Shown: one piece after another, positions 3,001 to 13,428 of the stretch
Numbering within the stretch: position 1 is the first letter of the stretch
Layout of the letters: every line of letters starts with the position of its first letter
DNA from: Bryobacterales bacterium
GTDB lineage: Bacteria > Acidobacteriota > Terriglobia > Bryobacterales > Bryobacteraceae
DNA length: 35,830 nucleotides
NCBI GenBank assembly: GCA_003169195.1
Contig: PMQB01000249.1
Span: forward strand, 5,927-41,756
Direction: 5' to 3'
The notes under the pieces: generated by a model
What the model saw: the letters and a program-made list of their open reading frames with translations, nothing else
What the model was told of the DNA's origin: nothing
Databases searched by the model: none
Made by a program: the position numbers and the translations under genes

Positions 3001-3253
3001 ACTTGCGGTTGAGTTTGGCCAAGGGGATTGCCAGCGTGAAAGCAATCGCACAAGCCAACGCCGCGAACAAAACGAGGCGTAGCGGCCAGACAACGTCTTC
3101 TACAAAACGGTATTGATTAGCGATCCAAACGAACAGAAGAGTCAGGGTGAGCGCCGCCAGGGCTGTCACCGCAGCACCGCGCGACGCCGCCATAAACCTT
3201 AGCCGCGATTCCACGCGTCGAAGATAATCATCCAGTTGAACAATTGCCGTCAT
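1..3253 (-). CDS. DUF4175-like large membrane protein, Gln/Gly-rich, 3' end outside window
   Basis: The ORF track misses this gene because it has no stop inside the window. I translated it from the ATG at 3253 down to base 2 and saw no stop in the segments checked. About 1084 codons are visible. Three hydrophobic segments lie in the first ~150 residues. A beta-rich stretch follows, then a long, charged, Gln-rich region likely to form coiled coils, with a run of nine Gly (near 1337-1363) and Gln/Gly repeats at the window edge. This layout resembles the DUF4175 family found beside MoxR/VWA genes; its function is unknown. The ATG overlaps the stop of the upstream BatA-type gene (ATGA), and GGGAGG sits just before it, so translation is probably coupled. 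The family assignment rests on architecture and context only. The shadow ORFs at 277-1407 and 1470-1994 are antisense to it. Confidence 0.85.
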   Translation of the reverse strand, partial: MTAIVQLDDYLRRVESRLRFMAASRGAAVTALAALTLTLLFVWIANQYRFVEDVVWPLRLVLFAALACAIAFTLAIPLAKLNRKFVTKLAEQKEPSFGERLLTVTERRDDANPFIELIAEDAMGVAQKHAPEQFAHSQVLFGALGIAVVALGVLVWLIAAGPGYLGYGSSLFWTGSGNATKKPLYELTVQPGNKTIRRKSDQMITAHLLGFNAHQVTLHAKYGDATKWDATAMQSGTDGNAYQFKFVGLSDPVEYYIQADGTESKHFKIAVRDLPGVKRVKVALHFPADLRIKDAVQDPGGDIRAVEGTQAGISVLTDKPLEHGVLMMEDGSKLELSKAEGNWLTAKMDIHKDGSYHVAALDNGEAIRISDDYFIESGKDEPPSVRITNPGKDPKVSPIEEVPVTIEATDDFGVEALDLHYSVNGGPEQVVPLLKAKGVKEASGTKLLSLEDFKLVPGDLVSLYATAKDATHTTRSEIVFAQAEPFDFKFSQSQQSGGGGGGGMGGMDNDISERQKQIIAATWNQEREPGKNRAALQENAKFLSDTEAKLAAQAQTLSERMASREMGGAGSAFANFSKLMTQASGQMGEAANQLKPGKWGEALPTEQKALQSLLRAMSLFRDIQIAFGQRGGGGGGGGGAQRDLARMFDLELDTSKNQYETGQQTPEEQQKDQQKAVDEALEKLKELAKRQQELAAQRPQQQAFEQRWQEEQLRREAEELRKQMQEMAQNQSQQQQQSQSGQQQQSGQQSSSSTGQSSSGQSASGKQGGQQQQRQMNEALRKSMEALRRSEDEMRKAVSQQDPAAQRRAAENLAEAESLLNKSLQQQAGNSVAGLSQKAQEMANQQRDIANSLKRMYGEQQQQASSPFRRMRPGQPEAGPNDLPELKDPASPRYYGYDRRRNWEPDLPPPHNPTEQERAMADEKARLAKGIQDLQRDMQQQERALASAQPGASSKMRKALSEAEQKELAMRMQKTAEWMKQGYGDRNIGAETKMAEGLEQLSRDLQDVQKSVEAGEANGKNGQGGDKNAEALSEVRNLRQMLERAQNQRGQQGQRQDSEQNLSREGQQGQQGQQGGQQQGGQQG

Positions 3254-5241
3254 GCCGCCTCCCTTTCTTCCTTCAGATACCGCGCCGCAAATACACTCTC
3301 CACACAAGCCGCTAGCAGAACCAACAACAACACATAGCGCCACAAACTCCAAGGCGTGCCCGAACTTTGCCCGGCAGCGGTTTTCTCCACCGGAGTCTTG
3401 CTACCAGTATTGCGCCACAAATCGAGCGTTTCGTCCGGTATGGTCGTCAGGTCCGATTCCCGGCGATCCGCGTGCACTGCCATCAATGATCTGCGGCCGC
3501 TGGCACTCTGCACTTCATAGAACCCGGCTTGCGTCAGACTGAACGTCATAGCCTTGCCGGCATCGCTCAGCGCGAGTTCGTGTTTGCCTGATGGCCCGAC
3601 GACATCGGCCGCAGTCGTCTCACTTTTCGCATGCCGCAAGGTTGCCGGCGACCCAACAACCACACTCGATGGAACATCGCTCGCCCCCGCCAGGTATAAA
3701 CCGGATTGCACAACAAATGGAACATAGGAGGCATGCAACGGAAAATCGCTATTCGAACTGTCGAGCATGGCGGCCAACGTGAGCACGCGCCCTTCGCCCA
3801 CCCGTTCCTCTAGCAACAGCGGCGATCCATCTGCAAATTTCGCAACCACGTTCGCCCCTGCGTTCGGCTGAACCGTGGCGCTGCGTAGAAATTGCACGTT
3901 GTCAAATCGGCCAGCTTCAGCCAAAGCAGGATGTTGAGTATCGGCTTCGCCCTCAGCCTGCGCGGCATTGCTGGGGCTCACCTTGTCACCAGTCACCGGA
4001 ATCGCGCCGGAGCGAGTTGTATCAAGGCCTGCTGCGACAAAAAGGCCACCGCCCTTCTCCACGTAAGAACGCATTTTTCGGGCAACGTCGGATTCCAGTT
4101 CGCCCGGATCACTGAGTACGACAAACACAAACTTTGTCAAATCGATATTGGAAGCCTGCTCCAATGCTGCTTGATCAACCAATAGCCCTGAGTTCGAGGA
4201 AGACTCCATGGCCGCTTTGTAGAAAAATCCTTCGCGGCTTCGTCCGCCCGCATAAAGGAACAAGACACGCCGCGGGTCGGCGCGTTCCACTGAAAACAAG
4301 TAGGTGTCATCTTGCGCCAACGAATCGTGCGGCTCAATCCGGATTTCGCCGCGATTCTCACCATAAGGAACATCAAACCCTAGAAACTCAACCTGCGCGC
4401 GCCCGTTCGCTGGAATCGCCAGGCTCTTGGTAGCAACGGTGCGATTATTCAGAACGAGCGCCACTTGGCGAGTTGTGGCAGACGTTTGCCAGCCCGCAAC
4501 GGTGGCCGTTAATCGGCTCTTCTTTGGATCAAAAATCTGCGGTGCAACCGTGACACTCTCCACGGCCCAATTCTCTTTCTTGGGCTCGGCGACCGAATGC
4601 AGCTCAAACGCCGTTCCCGGCTCCAATTGCAAATCGTGAAACCCATTTGCGGGCATGGAACTCTGTTGCATGTCGCTAATCAGATGCGCATCAATCTGCA
4701 TGTTGGCCGTCTTATCCAGCAATCGTAGGGCGCGCGCCAATTCACCGTACGAACTCGTTTGGTCTCCGGCGGTTATTCCGTCGATCGCGGCGTTTAAAGG
4801 CGCACGATCGGTCTCATTGCCGGTCAGCGTTTCCAGATGCGAATCCAACGCAGCAATTTGCGCAACAAATCTGCTGGGCAGATTTCGAACAAGCTTCCGT
4901 GCTTCTTCCTTGGCGCGCTCCATATGCTCGCCATCGCGCATGCTGAATGAGCGATCAATGGCGATCACCGTAAGGTGCCTGCGGTTCTGCGAAGCCGTAC
5001 TCCGCATTAGATAGGGATTGGCGAATGCCAGCACCAGTAGCGCCAGCAGAGCAAGCCGAAGCGCCAGCAACATCAAATAACGCAAGCGCCTGTGCCGTAC
5101 GGAACTCTGCACGCGTCGCTCAAAAAACATCAGCGAGCTAAACGGCTGCGGCGTGCGCTTGAATTGCCGCAACAAGTGCAGCCACAGAGGAAGTCCTATT
5201 GCCACCAGCCCAGCCAGGAACCACGGCGAGAGAAATCCCAT
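3250..5241 (-). CDS. BatA-type membrane protein with VWA domain
   Basis: This 663-residue protein starts with the paired membrane segments typical of the BatA N-terminal domain (residues ~5-25 and ~55-75), with a basic stretch between them. A von Willebrand factor A domain follows, with the metal-binding DxSxS motif as D96-R-S98-F-S100. The middle and C-terminal parts look like beta-sandwich domains plus an amidotransferase-like fold, and a last membrane helix lies near residues 640-655. Proteins of this kind act at the membrane with MoxR ATPases and DUF58 partners, probably in assembly or quality control of envelope complexes. The ATG directly abuts the DUF58 stop and has AGGAAG upstream. 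Its own stop overlaps the next start (ATGA). Confidence 0.9.
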   Translation of the reverse strand: MGFLSPWFLAGLVAIGLPLWLHLLRQFKRTPQPFSSLMFFERRVQSSVRHRRLRYLMLLALRLALLALLVLAFANPYLMRSTASQNRRHLTVIAIDRSFSMRDGEHMERAKEEARKLVRNLPSRFVAQIAALDSHLETLTGNETDRAPLNAAIDGITAGDQTSSYGELARALRLLDKTANMQIDAHLISDMQQSSMPANGFHDLQLEPGTAFELHSVAEPKKENWAVESVTVAPQIFDPKKSRLTATVAGWQTSATTRQVALVLNNRTVATKSLAIPANGRAQVEFLGFDVPYGENRGEIRIEPHDSLAQDDTYLFSVERADPRRVLFLYAGGRSREGFFYKAAMESSSNSGLLVDQAALEQASNIDLTKFVFVVLSDPGELESDVARKMRSYVEKGGGLFVAAGLDTTRSGAIPVTGDKVSPSNAAQAEGEADTQHPALAEAGRFDNVQFLRSATVQPNAGANVVAKFADGSPLLLEERVGEGRVLTLAAMLDSSNSDFPLHASYVPFVVQSGLYLAGASDVPSSVVVGSPATLRHAKSETTAADVVGPSGKHELALSDAGKAMTFSLTQAGFYEVQSASGRRSLMAVHADRRESDLTTIPDETLDLWRNTGSKTPVEKTAAGQSSGTPWSLWRYVLLLVLLAACVESVFAARYLKEEREAA

Positions 5242-6138
5242 TCACTTTCTTCCTTGCCGGATGGTCAAATACTCGCGCAACGCCTGATCCAATGGCCGGT
5301 CTGTTCGCAACAGAAAGTAATCGATGCCCGCAGCCTGCGCCTTGGTACGAAGTTCTTCAATATGCGCTTGAATCTTCTGGCGGTACTCGGTTTTGGCGTA
5401 GTCGGGCGTGGATTCCAATGCTTCGCCGGTTTCCATATCTACCAGCAGGGCACCGTCATCCAGTTTGAGCTCAATTTCACCAGGATCAAGCACATGAAAC
5501 AGAATGAGTTCGTTGCCGCGAAAGCGCAACGGCTCTACGGTCTTGACCACCACCTCCGGTTTTTCAAAGAAATCGGATATGAGCGCCGTCACGCCGCGCC
5601 GCTTCATGAACTGCTGCAATTCAAAAAATGGCTTTACGAAATTCGTACGCTTGCCCAGTTCCGCTTCGTCAATTCCGTGCAAAAGCCGCATCAATTGGCC
5701 CTGGCGCGATGAAGGTCTTACAAAGTTGGCGACATCATCATGAAAAACAACCAGCCCAGCGCTGTCACGCTGCAAATGCGCCATATATACCAACGAAGAA
5801 GCCAAATACTTTGCATATTCGAACTTTTTCACCTTACCGCCAAATCCCATGCTGGCGCTGGCATCGAGCAGGACGATAGTAGATGTATTCGTTTCGCCGC
5901 GGTAGCGTTTCAGATAGGCGCGTTCAGTTCGTGCGTACACATTCCAATCCACGTGCCGCAAATCATCTCCCGGTGAATAAGCGCGGTACTCTTCGAACTC
6001 CTGACTGAAGCCGAAATCCGGCGACCGGTGCAGCCCCGCCAGGAACCCATCCACCACCGTTTTCGCGATCAGGTCCAGGCCGGAAATTCCAGCCAACACT
6101 GCGGGATCTAGAAACCTGTTTGAGACTTGGGCTGGCAC
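5242..6138 (-). CDS. DUF58 domain protein (MoxR partner, VWA-like)
   Basis: This is a DUF58 protein of about 298 residues. It carries the typical segment SPGDDLRHVDWNVYARTE and a VWA-like DxSxS motif (DASAS). DUF58 proteins are usual genetic partners of MoxR ATPases. The ORF track starts it at 6237, but that start lies 77 bases inside moxR and adds a basic, unconserved-looking leader. I prefer the GTG at 6138, just after the moxR stop, with GGAG about 11 bases upstream; the family-like sequence begins shortly after it (NRFLDPAVLAGIS). The gene ends exactly where the BatA-type gene begins. No membrane segment is evident, so it is probably cytoplasmic or membrane-associated through partners. 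Confidence 0.9.
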   Translation of the reverse strand: MPAQVSNRFLDPAVLAGISGLDLIAKTVVDGFLAGLHRSPDFGFSQEFEEYRAYSPGDDLRHVDWNVYARTERAYLKRYRGETNTSTIVLLDASASMGFGGKVKKFEYAKYLASSLVYMAHLQRDSAGLVVFHDDVANFVRPSSRQGQLMRLLHGIDEAELGKRTNFVKPFFELQQFMKRRGVTALISDFFEKPEVVVKTVEPLRFRGNELILFHVLDPGEIELKLDDGALLVDMETGEALESTPDYAKTEYRQKIQAHIEELRTKAQAAGIDYFLLRTDRPLDQALREYLTIRQGRK

Positions 6139-6160
6139 TGGTATGTAGGCTCCGTGAGTC

Positions 6161-7189
6161 TTAGCCGCGCGGCGCTTGCTTCCAATCGAGCAACCGGCGC
6201 AAGATCTCGTCCGTATTGATGCGAGCCGATTCTGCATGGAAATTCAGCAGCACACGGTGGCGCAGAACCGGAGCTGCCAATGCGCGAATGTCGTCGTAAG
6301 AAACGTGAAAGCGGCCTTGCATGAGTGCGCGGGCCTTGCCGGCCAAAACTAGAAATTGTGCCGCACGAACGCTGGCGCCGAAATTGACATATTGCTGGAC
6401 GAAGTCCGGCGCTTCGCCTTGTGTCGGCCGGGTGGCACGCACTAAATCCACGGCATAGCGGGCCACCGAATCAGCAATGGGCGTCATTCGAACCAACTGT
6501 TGAAAACCTAAAATCTCTTCACCCGTGGTAACGGTATTCGCTTCGGCGCGAGTCGTAGTTGTGGTCAGGTCGAGCACCTTCACTTCTTCTTCGGCGGGCA
6601 AATAGTCCAAAACAGCATTAAACAAAAAGCGATCCAACTGCGCTTCCGGCAGCGGATAGGTTCCTTCCAACTCAATGGGGTTCTGTGTAGCTAATACGAA
6701 AAAAGGCGGCTCAATTTTATACTGATTGCCGCGCACCGTGCATGACAGCTCCTGCATCGCCTCCAGCAGTGCCGATTGCGTCTTCGGCGGGGTTCGGTTG
6801 ATTTCATCGGCAAGAAGAACGTTGGAGAATATCGGACCCGGCACGAACGTCCAAGTTCGGTGACCGGTCGTTGTATTTTCCTCAATGATGTCAGTACCGG
6901 TAATGTCGGACGGCATCAAATCAGGCGTGAACTGAATGCGATTGAACCGCAAGCCCAACGTTCGCGACAGCGTACGCACGAGCAAGGTTTTGGCTGTTCC
7001 AGGCAGACCTGTCAACAAGCAGTGGCCGCCGACAAACAGGGCAATCAGCACACTGTCGATCACGTCATCCTGCCCGACGATCACTTTATGAATTTCATTG
7101 CGAATCACATTCTGTGCGTCGTGAAAGCGTTTGACGCGTTCACGCACCTCAGACGAATCAACGGGCGTTGCGGTAGAAGTGGTTGACAT
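6161..7189 (-). CDS. MoxR-family AAA+ ATPase
   Basis: This 342-residue AAA+ ATPase has Walker A GLPGTAKT (residues 61-68), Walker B LLADE (125-129), and the sensor-like stretch FVLATQNPIELEGTYPLPEAQLDRF typical of MoxR proteins in full. MoxR ATPases act as chaperone-like remodelers, often inserting metal or maturing the VWA proteins encoded beside them. Here it is followed by DUF58 and BatA-type genes and preceded by a secreted peptidase-like gene whose stop is one base away. No good ribosome binding site precedes the ATG, which fits coupled translation. Length and motifs are normal for the family. The substrate cannot be read from the sequence. Confidence 0.95.
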   Translation of the reverse strand: MSTTSTATPVDSSEVRERVKRFHDAQNVIRNEIHKVIVGQDDVIDSVLIALFVGGHCLLTGLPGTAKTLLVRTLSRTLGLRFNRIQFTPDLMPSDITGTDIIEENTTTGHRTWTFVPGPIFSNVLLADEINRTPPKTQSALLEAMQELSCTVRGNQYKIEPPFFVLATQNPIELEGTYPLPEAQLDRFLFNAVLDYLPAEEEVKVLDLTTTTTRAEANTVTTGEEILGFQQLVRMTPIADSVARYAVDLVRATRPTQGEAPDFVQQYVNFGASVRAAQFLVLAGKARALMQGRFHVSYDDIRALAAPVLRHRVLLNFHAESARINTDEILRRLLDWKQAPRG

Positions 7190-7190
7190 T

Positions 7191-9365
7191 TTATTGGCTC
7201 AATTGAAGAAGTAATTGCTGTGCGGGCTTAAACCCCGGGGCGGCTTCGAGAGCCAGTACGACTTGGTCTTTTGCTTCGCTCAGACGGCGTGCCGCCTTGA
7301 GCGCCTTGGCCAATTCGTAATGCGATTCGGCGGTGTCGACGGGCTGCAATGCTAAAAGCGCCTTCGCTTCTTTCACCGCTCCTTCTGCATCGCCTGCATC
7401 CAACAGCAAACTGCCTAGTCTTCGATGTGTCTCCTCGTCTTCGGGATAGATGTAGTTTAGTTTCGCAAGTGTGTTTCGAGCCTGCTTGGCGTTTCCGGCC
7501 TCTTGCTCCCATTCGGCCAGTTTCTTTAACGATTCCACCGAAGTGCCGCCGGCGCTGCTATATTTCTCCAACTCCGCCATGGCTGCCTTCTGATCGCCTT
7601 TGTGTTTATAGGCAGCTGCTAGCGCTTCGTAGGCGCTTCCATTGCCTGTGTAGTCGGGATACGAATCACGCACGGCAAGAGCATCACGAATTACGTCGTC
7701 GAACTTGCTGGCTTCCAGTTCCTCGTTCATGGTTTTCATGCCTTTTTTCCATTCGGAGAAATGCTTTACGGTGTTCTCCGTTTTGGAACTGAGCCAGGAC
7801 TGGAACTCTTTGTCAAAGGCCGTCGCAGTCTCATGCAGATTCGTTTGAATGGCTTCTTCTGTGGTTTTGCGGTCGGCGAAGGAATGGATCATACCTAACA
7901 GCGCGTCATCGCCCCACTTCTTGTCGATGAAATCGCAGATCTTCCCGGCTTCGAAATAGGACACCATCACCTGCAGAGGAAACGTTGGACGCACAAATCC
8001 TTTATCCAGTTCCAATACCGGCAGAAGCTGTTTTTTCTCCAGAGCTGACACAATCTCGGGAGTCAGTCGGTCGCCCCAATCGGGCGACGCGGCACCTTCT
8101 TCGTGGACCGCGAGGCCTTCTGTAAACCACCGCGGCACCAGATGATGCGTCTCAGTCAGTACAAACACATGGCTAAATTCATGCCACATCGTGCTGGCCC
8201 AGCTGAACTCTCCTGGTGGACGCGCGGTGGGGCTATCCATTGTCACCGTGAGCCCGAAAGTAACGCCCAACAACCCGCCCTGTCCCGGCACACCGAGCGT
8301 GCGCACAATAAAGTCATCGTGGTTCGGATACATCTCTAAGTGCACCGGCCCGGGCAGTTTCATCTTGTATTTGCGTTCGTAGGTTGCGATAGCGCGCTGC
8401 ATTTCGGCCTCAACATAAGGCCGTAACAGCGCCGATTCCTTTTTGCTTAGCAACAATTCGGTGTTCGCTGTTTTGAAGATCTCGTAATTGCCAAAACTGT
8501 CCAGCAGCCGCAGTGAATTTCTAGTTTCGGCGTTGCGGTAATAGGTATTGAAACACTGCTCCAACTGTTGGTGCGCCTCCGCGTCGGAGCCCTGACGCAT
8601 AAGATTCACACCCAATTGGGACCGTGCCGCTCTTAGTGAAGGATCTAAACTGAGCGCCTTTCGGTAATAGGAGATGGCTTCGTCGTAACGCCGGTTAATC
8701 TCGAAAAAATGCGCGCCCGTGGCATAAGCTTGGCCATAAAAAGGATCGATTTTTAGAATCCGCTGCATCCATTCGCTGGGCTCTTTGTTATTCAGCCAGT
8801 CCATGGAAGCCAGCACTGACATCGCATCCAGCGCTTCGTTCGAAATCGCCAGCGCTTTTTGTGCTTCCTCTGACGCTTTCTTTGTGTCGCTGTCTTCCAA
8901 CGCCAGATACGCCAGCAACTCATGAGCCTGGTACAGTTTTGGATCATGCTTTAAAGCCTGTTCAGCGGCTTCTGCGGCTCTCGGGTCGAATCCCTGCGCT
9001 GCCGCGCGCGCCAATCCTAAGAAAGCTTGGGCATCGTTTCCATCGGCCACAATCGCTTGCGCAAACGACTTCGCAGCATCGCCCGGCTGACTGGCTTCCA
9101 AGAAGAAAGATCCCCACTCCGTGTTAAAGTCGGCCGAAGCCAGGCCGCCTTTCTCCGCAGCCTTAAATTCGTTGTTAGCATCCAAATATTGATAAAGTCC
9201 CCAGGAACCTTCAGCTCGAGCAAAAGCGTCCCCACTGCGCAACAAGGCCGTAAAACAAGCCCGGGCCTCCTTTATCTGACCGTGGCGATGCAGAGTCTTA
9301 CAACTCTCTCCAGGCACTGCCGCAAAAGCAAGCCCACTGACCATCAGGAAAAGCAACGCCTTCAC
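7191..9365 (-). CDS. Secreted TPR protein with peptidase MA-like (HExxH) domain
   Basis: This 724-residue protein begins with a signal peptide (LLFLMVSGLAFAAVP). Many TPR-like helical repeats fill residues ~25-290. A zinc-peptidase-like segment carries H395-E-F-S-H399 and a downstream WFTEGLA with E416, which fits the gluzincin pattern of the peptidase MA family. A second TPR block fills residues ~560-720. The catalytic residues appear intact. The GTG start overlaps the stop of the caspase-like gene by two bases (GTGA) and has GGAG eight bases upstream. It probably works in the periplasm, either as a protease or as a peptide-binding scaffold. The substrate is unknown. A peptidase between a caspase-like gene and moxR suggests proteolysis is part of the operon's job. 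Confidence 0.88.
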   Translation of the reverse strand: MKALLFLMVSGLAFAAVPGESCKTLHRHGQIKEARACFTALLRSGDAFARAEGSWGLYQYLDANNEFKAAEKGGLASADFNTEWGSFFLEASQPGDAAKSFAQAIVADGNDAQAFLGLARAAAQGFDPRAAEAAEQALKHDPKLYQAHELLAYLALEDSDTKKASEEAQKALAISNEALDAMSVLASMDWLNNKEPSEWMQRILKIDPFYGQAYATGAHFFEINRRYDEAISYYRKALSLDPSLRAARSQLGVNLMRQGSDAEAHQQLEQCFNTYYRNAETRNSLRLLDSFGNYEIFKTANTELLLSKKESALLRPYVEAEMQRAIATYERKYKMKLPGPVHLEMYPNHDDFIVRTLGVPGQGGLLGVTFGLTVTMDSPTARPPGEFSWASTMWHEFSHVFVLTETHHLVPRWFTEGLAVHEEGAASPDWGDRLTPEIVSALEKKQLLPVLELDKGFVRPTFPLQVMVSYFEAGKICDFIDKKWGDDALLGMIHSFADRKTTEEAIQTNLHETATAFDKEFQSWLSSKTENTVKHFSEWKKGMKTMNEELEASKFDDVIRDALAVRDSYPDYTGNGSAYEALAAAYKHKGDQKAAMAELEKYSSAGGTSVESLKKLAEWEQEAGNAKQARNTLAKLNYIYPEDEETHRRLGSLLLDAGDAEGAVKEAKALLALQPVDTAESHYELAKALKAARRLSEAKDQVVLALEAAPGFKPAQQLLLQLSQ

Positions 9366-10282
9366 TTATCAATCTCCGCCTGTGTGCGCGCCAATTCCAG
9401 CAGGAGCGCCGTTAATTGCTGCTTGTACTCGTTTTCCTCCATGGCAGCTTTCTCATATTTCAGCCGGTCAATCTTCGCTTCCAAATCTTCTTTCTTGCTC
9501 ACCAGCTTTTGTTTTTCAGGCCCCAGTACTTTTGCGCCTTCTGTGCGCGCATGAATCAAAATGAAGGATGCGGCCAGCAATCCTTGTCCATTCTCCGGTT
9601 TCGGATCACGCACGCCGTTCGTGTTCGCGGTATCGGTGATAATGGCGTGCTCTGTGGCCAGCAACTTCTCCGCTTCAAAGTAAGCGGTTGTTTTGCGATC
9701 GGCATAGCGAAACGCTTCTAACGCTGAAATGGACCCGTTCTTATCGGTGTCCGCACTCGGATCGTGCAACGCATCCACCCAATAACGCGCAAAGACCGGA
9801 GCGTTCTTCTCTGTCCCTGATTTTGTCGCGGAGATGACGACGCGATCTTTCTTAGCTAGCGCCGTGAGTGAAGCGCCGCTACAACTGGTCATATTTACTA
9901 CCAGCTGCCGATGCGCGGTTATCCGATTCAACGCCTTGGCCAATTCCACTGCCGTCATGTCAGGTCCAGGCAAATTAATCTTGTAATCCACACCGTCAAA
10001 GCTTCCATGCCCAATTAGAAAGAGCGCAAAGCTATCGGTCGCGCTGCTTTCGCTCGCCACCTTGTTCAAGGCTTGTTCCACCTGCTGCTTCGTAGCAGAA
10101 GATCCACTCAAAGTGATGACGTGTGCATCGACTCCCGTGTTTAATTCATGATCCAAATCCTGCGCCCATTTGACAAACTGCTTGTCATATTCAGGATCGC
10201 CTCCCAAACCAGCAACAGTAACGAAGTAATTAGCAGCATGCGCAACGAAACACCCGCACAGTAGTAGAAGACAAATCTTCAT
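9362..10282 (-). CDS. Secreted caspase-like (clan CD) protein with EF-hand loop
   Basis: I start this gene at the ATG at 10282, giving 306 residues. The longer ORF start at 10363 lies inside the upstream gene. The start overlaps the upstream stop (ATGA). A signal peptide ends near A-H-A (residues 14-16). A caspase/legumain-like core follows, with a His at H92 (LFLIGHGSFDG) and a Cys at C134 (VVNMTSCSGAS), each after a hydrophobic strand as expected for clan CD. Residues 178-189 (DTDKNGSISALE) match the 12-residue EF-hand calcium loop exactly at positions 1, 3, 5, 6, 8 and 12. The last ~60 residues look like a coiled coil. It may be an active or calcium-regulated cysteine peptidase in the periplasm. 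Activity is inferred, not shown. Confidence 0.85.
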   Translation of the reverse strand: MKICLLLLCGCFVAHAANYFVTVAGLGGDPEYDKQFVKWAQDLDHELNTGVDAHVITLSGSSATKQQVEQALNKVASESSATDSFALFLIGHGSFDGVDYKINLPGPDMTAVELAKALNRITAHRQLVVNMTSCSGASLTALAKKDRVVISATKSGTEKNAPVFARYWVDALHDPSADTDKNGSISALEAFRYADRKTTAYFEAEKLLATEHAIITDTANTNGVRDPKPENGQGLLAASFILIHARTEGAKVLGPEKQKLVSKKEDLEAKIDRLKYEKAAMEENEYKQQLTALLLELARTQAEIDK

Positions 10283-12549: not shown

Positions 12550-13428
12550 CTAATGTGTCATGGCGTAAACGAGATAGTCGACGCCAATGCGAAAACCTAA
12601 AGCAGAATACTGCTCCGGATAACGAGGATCGTCGGCATTCTCCCATGAATCTCCCAAATCCATGTTGTGGCAAATAGCCACCATGACGCGCTGCTTATCG
12701 TCATAGATGCCGCGCCATCGTGGGATAAAGCCATCCTTTTCAGGAATGCGGTGCGTTACGGTCACCTGCATGCCAGGCACTTGATAACGGTCGTCAAGAT
12801 CGTAGACAGTGTGGAAGATCGGATCACTGTTAGGCAAATCCACGATCGGGCGATCGGGAAATACTTTCTTCATGCTTCTGGTAAACGTATCCCACTCTTC
12901 ACTGCCGTGAAAATCGTCGCACATAAAGAAGCCGCCGCGTAGCAGAAAATCGCGCAGTTTGGCGGCCTGAAAATCCGTCAGGTCCCAATGCCCGACTTCC
13001 ACGCCATAGAGCCACGGCCAGTTGTAAATGTCGTCGCCATCTTCGGCCGCCACCGGTTCTTCTGCCGAGCGCGCTTGTATACGAGTAAGACGGCGCACAG
13101 CGGCAGAAAGGTGACGGTCAGAACGCGGATAATCAATGGTCCAGTTATTCCGGCGGATGCCCCACATGGGAACTGCGCGATACATAAAACGCGCAAAAAC
13201 CCATTCGCCCGGCGTGGCGTAATCGTCAGGAATCGGAAAATCGTTGTATTCCCAAGCTGGATACTCGCGGAAAACGCCAGGTTGTTGCTCTTTGCGTGTC
13301 GTTCGTTTCCCAACGTTGCCGGCATCGTTTGGCAGGGATTCCTGATCGGGCAGAGGAACGGTAGCGCAAATTGCGCTTAAGAGAGCTAGACCCGAAAAAA
13401 CCAGCAGGCAAATGCCACGCGCGCGCAT
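12550..13428 (-). CDS. DUF4159 domain secreted protein
   Basis: This 292-residue protein has an N-terminal hydrophobic signal segment (ICLLVFSGLALLSAICATV). Its body matches the DUF4159 pattern as I remember it: FARFMYRA, a tract around WPWLYGVEVGHWDLT, and LRDFLLRGGFFMCDDFHG. DUF4159 has an amidotransferase-like fold and commonly lies in MoxR/VWA clusters; its function is unknown. It is the first gene of the eight-gene unit. The 47-base gap upstream contains a perfect 10-base palindrome but no promoter that I can defend, so the unit may also be read from the promoter at 14352-14380. No clear ribosome binding site precedes the ATG. Confidence 0.88.
   Translation of the reverse strand: MRARGICLLVFSGLALLSAICATVPLPDQESLPNDAGNVGKRTTRKEQQPGVFREYPAWEYNDFPIPDDYATPGEWVFARFMYRAVPMWGIRRNNWTIDYPRSDRHLSAAVRRLTRIQARSAEEPVAAEDGDDIYNWPWLYGVEVGHWDLTDFQAAKLRDFLLRGGFFMCDDFHGSEEWDTFTRSMKKVFPDRPIVDLPNSDPIFHTVYDLDDRYQVPGMQVTVTHRIPEKDGFIPRWRGIYDDKQRVMVAICHNMDLGDSWENADDPRYPEQYSALGFRIGVDYLVYAMTH

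Follow-up and report, generated by a model that had tools for sequence, protein, structure and literature searches.

The locus described here raises the question of whether a member of the Acidobacteriota exports a caspase-like enzyme that is controlled by calcium and tied to a MoxR system, as an earlier note on this DNA had proposed. The window, by which we mean the whole stretch analysed, comprises 35,830 nucleotides from a Bryobacterales bacterium, and the gene in question is a minus-strand open frame of 306 amino acids, opposite which the plus strand is full of stops. It shares four bases (ATGA) with the upstream gene and has a GTGA overlap with the downstream gene, and is thus most likely translated together with both neighbours. 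Its H92, C134, D178, D180, N182, G183, I185 and E189 are all found exactly where the note had placed them. The export signal that had been read in this protein also finds support, in a start (MKICLLLLCGCFVAHA, followed by AN) that is signal-peptide-like as judged by eye and by hydropathy. The A-H-A/A sequence that ends the hydrophobic stretch is a plausible signal peptidase I site, suggesting that the protein is exported. At the other end of the protein, a C-terminal helical hairpin has conserved K275, K278, Y286 and A298. Coordinates of all features are given in Table 1.

Table 1 Features of the C13-like gene and its operon, in positions of the window
Feature	Positions	Strand	Basis or detail
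C13-like clan CD protein, P0001	9362..10282	-	306 aa
Signal-peptide-like N-terminus, residues 1-16 (MKICLLLLCGCFVAHA)	10235..10282	-	Sequence; hydropathy peak at residue 3
Clan CD (legumain/caspase-like) domain, about residues 18-245	9548..10231	-	Pfam, AlphaFold2, Foldseek
H92 of G-H-G	10007..10009	-	Invariant in 137/137 orthologs
D108 of the family-specific N-L-P-G-P-D	9959..9961	-	Invariant in 137/137 orthologs
S133, the usual alignment partner of the true clan CD nucleophile	9884..9886	-	Ser in 121/137, never Cys
C134, nucleophile of the earlier note	9881..9883	-	Cys in 21/137
EF-hand-like loop, residues 178-189 (DTDKNGSISALE)	9716..9751	-	Sequence, orthologs
E211 of T-E-H	9650..9652	-	Invariant in 137/137 orthologs
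C-terminal hairpin of two long helices, residues 255-305	9368..9520	-	AlphaFold2 model, ortholog conservation
DUF4159 protein, hydrophobic N-terminus	12550..13428	-	Pfam, hydropathy
VWA (MIDAS DDSRS) + GATase1-like membrane protein, two N-terminal hydrophobic helices	10279..12534	-	Pfam, motif, hydropathy
TPR + gluzincin (Peptidase_MA_2) protein	7191..9365	-	Pfam; HExxH kept in 78/78 loci
MoxR AAA+ ATPase	6161..7189	-	Pfam
DUF58 VWA protein, MIDAS DASAS	5242..6237	-	Pfam, motif; listed start probably too far upstream
BatA-type VWA membrane protein, MIDAS DRSFS	3250..5241	-	Pfam, motif

The assignment to the caspase-like proteins of clan CD was upheld. The fold is well supported, because the protein passes the Pfam cut-off for PF01650 (Peptidase_C13; cut-off 22.8 bits, score 26.7 bits, E 5e-6), with a partial match over profile positions 94-192 of 258, and because its AlphaFold2 model, computed from an alignment of 58 orthologs, is confident (mean pLDDT 91.5) and matches legumains. 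Human legumain was the top Foldseek match in the PDB (E 5.7e-8, probability 1.00), with 4n6o among the legumains, and these were followed by MALT1, caspases and metacaspases; a Foldseek search of viral structures yielded giant-virus metacaspases, informative on fold class alone. A PDB search with the single protein sequence gave nothing meaningful, and a PDB profile search recovered GSU0716 and metacaspases weakly. Among the 58 orthologs, PF01650 was matched by 13 and PF00656 (Peptidase_C14) by 6 at E ≤ 0.01, the window protein itself having no PF00656 match. NCBIfam held no model for it, and PADLOC gave a weak generic 'caspase' match (E 5e-5). C13 is the closest named family.

Membership of the fold leaves the catalytic residues to be judged, and these were compared across 137 distinct ortholog sequences. 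The catalytic histidine of C13 is conserved throughout, as H92, whereas a conserved catalytic cysteine was not found. Residue 134, which the earlier note had taken for the nucleophile, is Ala in 77 orthologs, Ser in 32, Cys in 21, Gly in 3, Thr in 3 and Val in 1, and on a tree built without this region it has undergone at least 34 changes among small residues, and at least nine switches between Cys and other residues. The neighbouring residue 133, a Ser in 121, is Cys in none of the 137, and roughly one ortholog in ten has Ala, Gly, Pro, Asn or Glu there. The catalytic cysteine was probably lost or never kept in most members of this C13-like family, and the claim of a cysteine enzyme under calcium control is not supported. 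A nucleophile call from one sequence is unsafe, as the 'caspase-like' cysteine of the window protein is absent from most of its orthologs.

Which of the two columns corresponds to the true nucleophile depends on the alignment. The true-cysteine clan CD proteins of the phylum carry C-x-S-G, and the window family mostly [T/A/S]-S-[A/S/C]-S-G. Four MAFFT modes aligned the true Cys to column 133, and an HMM of 41 true-Cys proteins placed the nucleophile there in 41 of 54 scored family members, the remaining 13 being members with a Cys at 134 to attract the nucleophile column. By contrast, hhalign put the true nucleophile at C134, with a one-residue gap and at low confidence. In the structural models, the starts of the helix ahead of the strand and of the helix at S-G lie 24 residues apart both in the window protein (111 to 135) and in a true-Cys relative, L235 (137 to 161; model pLDDT 75.5), so that no gap is needed at the site. 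By our own estimate column 133 is the likelier of the two, and whichever column holds, the nucleophile is not a conserved cysteine in the sequences compared.

These data bear on the possibility that the window protein belongs to a clade of active cysteine peptidases, in which C134 would act as nucleophile through a C-x-S-G turn shortened by one residue, H92 would be the base and Ca2+ in the loop would stabilise or activate the enzyme, other lineages having been inactivated by replacement of Cys with Ala or Ser. Such an enzyme would account for the retention of C134 beside an intact H92 in the window protein, in 7/7 members of its own clade and in most of a second clade, as well as for the hhalign pairing and for a strand motif, V-N-M-x-x-C, that the window protein has in common with L235 (A-V-N-M-Q-Q-C). 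The first two of these observations also count against a non-catalytic protein. However, alignments of members that have no Cys put the nucleophile at 133, the equal helix spacing requires no deletion, residue 134 has interchanged repeatedly among C, A and S, and the operon is kept regardless of the cysteine. We therefore consider an active cysteine peptidase unlikely, even within this clade.

The site has nonetheless not been abandoned. H92, N-L-P-G-P-D108, A152-T153, E211 and D217 are invariant or nearly so, indicating that a site is still under selection. The strict retention of H92 is a further point against a non-catalytic protein, being uncommon among dead members of clan CD. One explanation would be a serine-type or otherwise re-purposed enzyme in which S133, H92, D108 and E211 make up an active site newly formed on the clan CD fold; S133 is the prevailing residue, the other three persist in every ortholog despite the missing Cys, and the motifs N-L-P-G-P-D and T-E-H, which the family conserves, do not occur in that form in the aligned true-Cys relatives. 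Against this stand the members, about a tenth, with Ala, Gly, Pro, Asn or Glu at 133, and we regard a new enzyme of this kind as very improbable.

The second part of the original proposal concerned calcium. The EF-hand loop that it described is present, with the key positions as claimed. A single match to the strict pattern D-x-[DNS]-x-[DNS]-G-x-[ILV]-x-x-x-[DE] lies in the 69,558 residues of the six-frame window translation, which thus holds no second, paired loop, and the pattern arose in 163 of 200,000 shuffles of the window protein (0.08%). Alignment of the loop residues, together with a check for its absence from relatives, showed that the loop is present in all 137 orthologs, which conform to D-x-[DNS]-x-[DNS]-x-x-[ILVT]-x-x-x-E at constant length, with D178 and E189 invariant, positions 3 and 5 always D, N or S, and position 8 Thr in 7. 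Position 6, a Gly in the window protein, is Gly in 58/137, so the loop is not canonical throughout the orthologs, and this weakens the case for calcium. Of the 41 true-Cys clan CD relatives in the phylum, 26 have a loop of a looser form 48-88 residues past the Cys, against about 5% per domain in shuffles. The loop is thus common in the bacterial clan CD proteins of this phylum and has been kept here though the cysteine was not. Our literature search found no description of an EF-hand-like loop embedded after a clan CD Cys.

The ligand pattern suggests that the loop most likely holds a structural Ca2+. A chance motif, or a purely structural turn that binds no calcium, would fit the variable position 6 and the single, unpaired loop. 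It fits poorly with the retention of ligand positions 1, 3, 5 and 12 in 137/137 orthologs (N, D or S being allowed at 3 and 5) and with the frequency of the loop at the equivalent place in true-Cys relatives, and we hold it to be distinctly unlikely. A calcium-controlled caspase-like enzyme, as originally envisaged, does not follow from these findings either, since the loop is no peculiarity of this protein and the cysteine is unconserved; an embedded EF-hand-like loop alone is no sign of a calcium-switched protease in this phylum.

The proposed tie to a MoxR system was confirmed by gene order. The operon runs VWA/GATase-like gene, C13-like gene, TPR-metallopeptidase, MoxR, DUF58 and BatA, and is most likely translationally coupled; by Pfam, motif and gene order, the MoxR ATPase adjoins VWA proteins with MIDAS motifs. 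Neither a VMAP, iSTAND, FtsH or beta-propeller component (by Pfam) nor a convincing match to a defence system was found among the neighbours. The TPR-gluzincin protein retains HExxH, with a PRW-x-x-EG motif after it, at 78/78 loci, and thus has the look of an exported zinc-peptidase that is functional. The listed frames of MoxR and DUF58 share 77 bases (6161-6237), the DUF58 start probably lying further downstream.

We next consider how widely the gene and its operon are kept. Because a whole-genome PF01650 search misses the window gene itself and so undercounts, counts were taken from protein and profile searches. Orthologs were present in 141/150 genomes of the window's family; in a phylum-wide draw, a single-sequence search found them in 69/247 genomes. 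A profile search gave matches in 149/396, some of them weak hits on other clan CD proteins. Among the organism names listed, close relatives were from Bryobacterales, Bryobacteraceae and Acidobacteriaceae. Outside Acidobacteriota the search covered a plasmid collection, which yielded one relative, on a 1.1-Mb replicon of Gemmatirosa (Gemmatimonadota), with an identical operon order. Most of 20 distant acidobacteriotes drawn from across the phylum kept the MoxR-VWA operon order, with few exceptions (L074, L081 and L082), and in these genomes DUF4159 genes lie upstream or between the TPR and MoxR genes. Five loci (L071, L072, L079, L080 and L083) have at least two DUF4159 genes, of which one precedes the VWA/GATase gene and another lies in the interval between TPR-peptidase and MoxR.

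Co-occurrence was examined in 48 genomes picked to include both carriers (10) and non-carriers (38) of the C13-like gene. TPR-peptidase and VWA/GATase genes were present in 10/10 carriers; among non-carriers the TPR-peptidase was absent from 38/38 and the VWA/GATase gene from 36/38; in the other two its frame is truncated, as would be expected at a contig end. The three genes thus behave as one unit in gain and loss. Gene order and co-occurrence together make the C13-like protein a candidate partner of its neighbours.

These cumulative results lead us to consider it probable that the protein is a mostly non-catalytic, exported clan CD protein, stabilised by calcium, that serves a MoxR-VWA module as a binding or regulatory subunit in the periplasm. 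The EF-hand-like loop, located ahead of the final helix in the core domain, would hold a structural Ca2+, the former substrate cleft would have become a peptide or ligand site, and the C-terminal helical hairpin would serve as a docking arm. By these means the protein could join a periplasm-facing MoxR-VWA assembly of VWA membrane proteins and the intact TPR-zinc-peptidase. It may present substrate to the zinc-peptidase or restrain it, two putative directions of regulation; if the module is proteolytic, the zinc-peptidase is the better candidate, given that its HExxH is kept in every locus. A bolder proposal, which we think improbable, is that the clan CD cleft was rebuilt phylum-wide around His92, Asp108, Glu211, mostly Ser133 and an obligatory calcium loop, such that a ligand is bound or processed for a MoxR-VWA-zinc-peptidase envelope machine and the old cysteine is dispensable.

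Catalytically dead caspase homologs (PMC6426788) and inactive caspase domains in MoxR-vWA systems (PMC7159879) are already known. In the MoxR-vWA-centric ternary systems, MoxR, VWA and caspase-fold domains are linked, about 70% of the caspase domains in effector position are reported to be inactive, and these were proposed to be peptide binders or dominant-negative regulators (PMC7159879). By analogy, we prefer a peptide- or ligand-binding role for the protein described here. The ternary systems, however, centre on VMAP, iSTAND, FtsH or beta-propeller partners, whereas the present module is Bat-like (DUF58, BatA, DUF4159), with a TPR-zinc-peptidase and an exported, stand-alone clan CD protein. 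Elsewhere, MoxR-VWA pairs are described as chaperone pairs that remodel complexes (PMC7159879), as is NorQ/NorD (PMC9976466). Bat (aerotolerance) operons resemble this one in that MoxR adjoins BatA-type VWA proteins, but the portion of PMC3557215 consulted describes no clan CD protein in them, and it states that Bat protein function has not been elucidated.

Pseudo-orthocaspases are bacterial clan CD proteins of family C14 that have no His-Cys dyad and are presumed non-catalytic; they occur mainly in Alphaproteobacteria and Cyanobacteria, with Tyr-Ser most commonly in place of His-Cys and a His-Ala variant mentioned (PMC6426788). The window family differs from them in its invariant His, C13 as best Pfam match, export-type start, MoxR-VWA operon and phyla (Acidobacteriota and Gemmatimonadota). 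With C13 (legumain and GPI transamidase, clan CD) it has in common the fold, the GHG histidine and a PF01650 score above the cut-off, but it is bacterial, has no conserved catalytic Cys, and has a built-in EF-hand-like loop and a C-terminal helical hairpin; identity between the window protein and legumain is about 10%. Searches of the open-access literature for MoxR with caspases in Acidobacteria, and for bacterial legumain-like proteins with EF-hands, turned up no description of this family. The family is a candidate, amenable to testing, for a caspase-like fold that has a conserved role other than catalysis outside the cytoplasm and is linked to MoxR-VWA operons.

Several other clan CD proteins were encountered in the phylum. 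The genome of the window encodes a second one (L221; G000 contig C594, 44067-44726), in a frame of 893 aa; its site, M-D-S-C-Y-S-G, is regular, and it too has an EF-hand-like loop, DLDHNGVITASE. A true-Cys relative at a contig edge (L121, G501:C87:1-667) has stops within the match and may be a decayed gene. Three paralogs from one family of the phylum (L124, L125 and L126) carry an acidic low-complexity insert of up to about 60 residues directly before the EF-hand-like loop.
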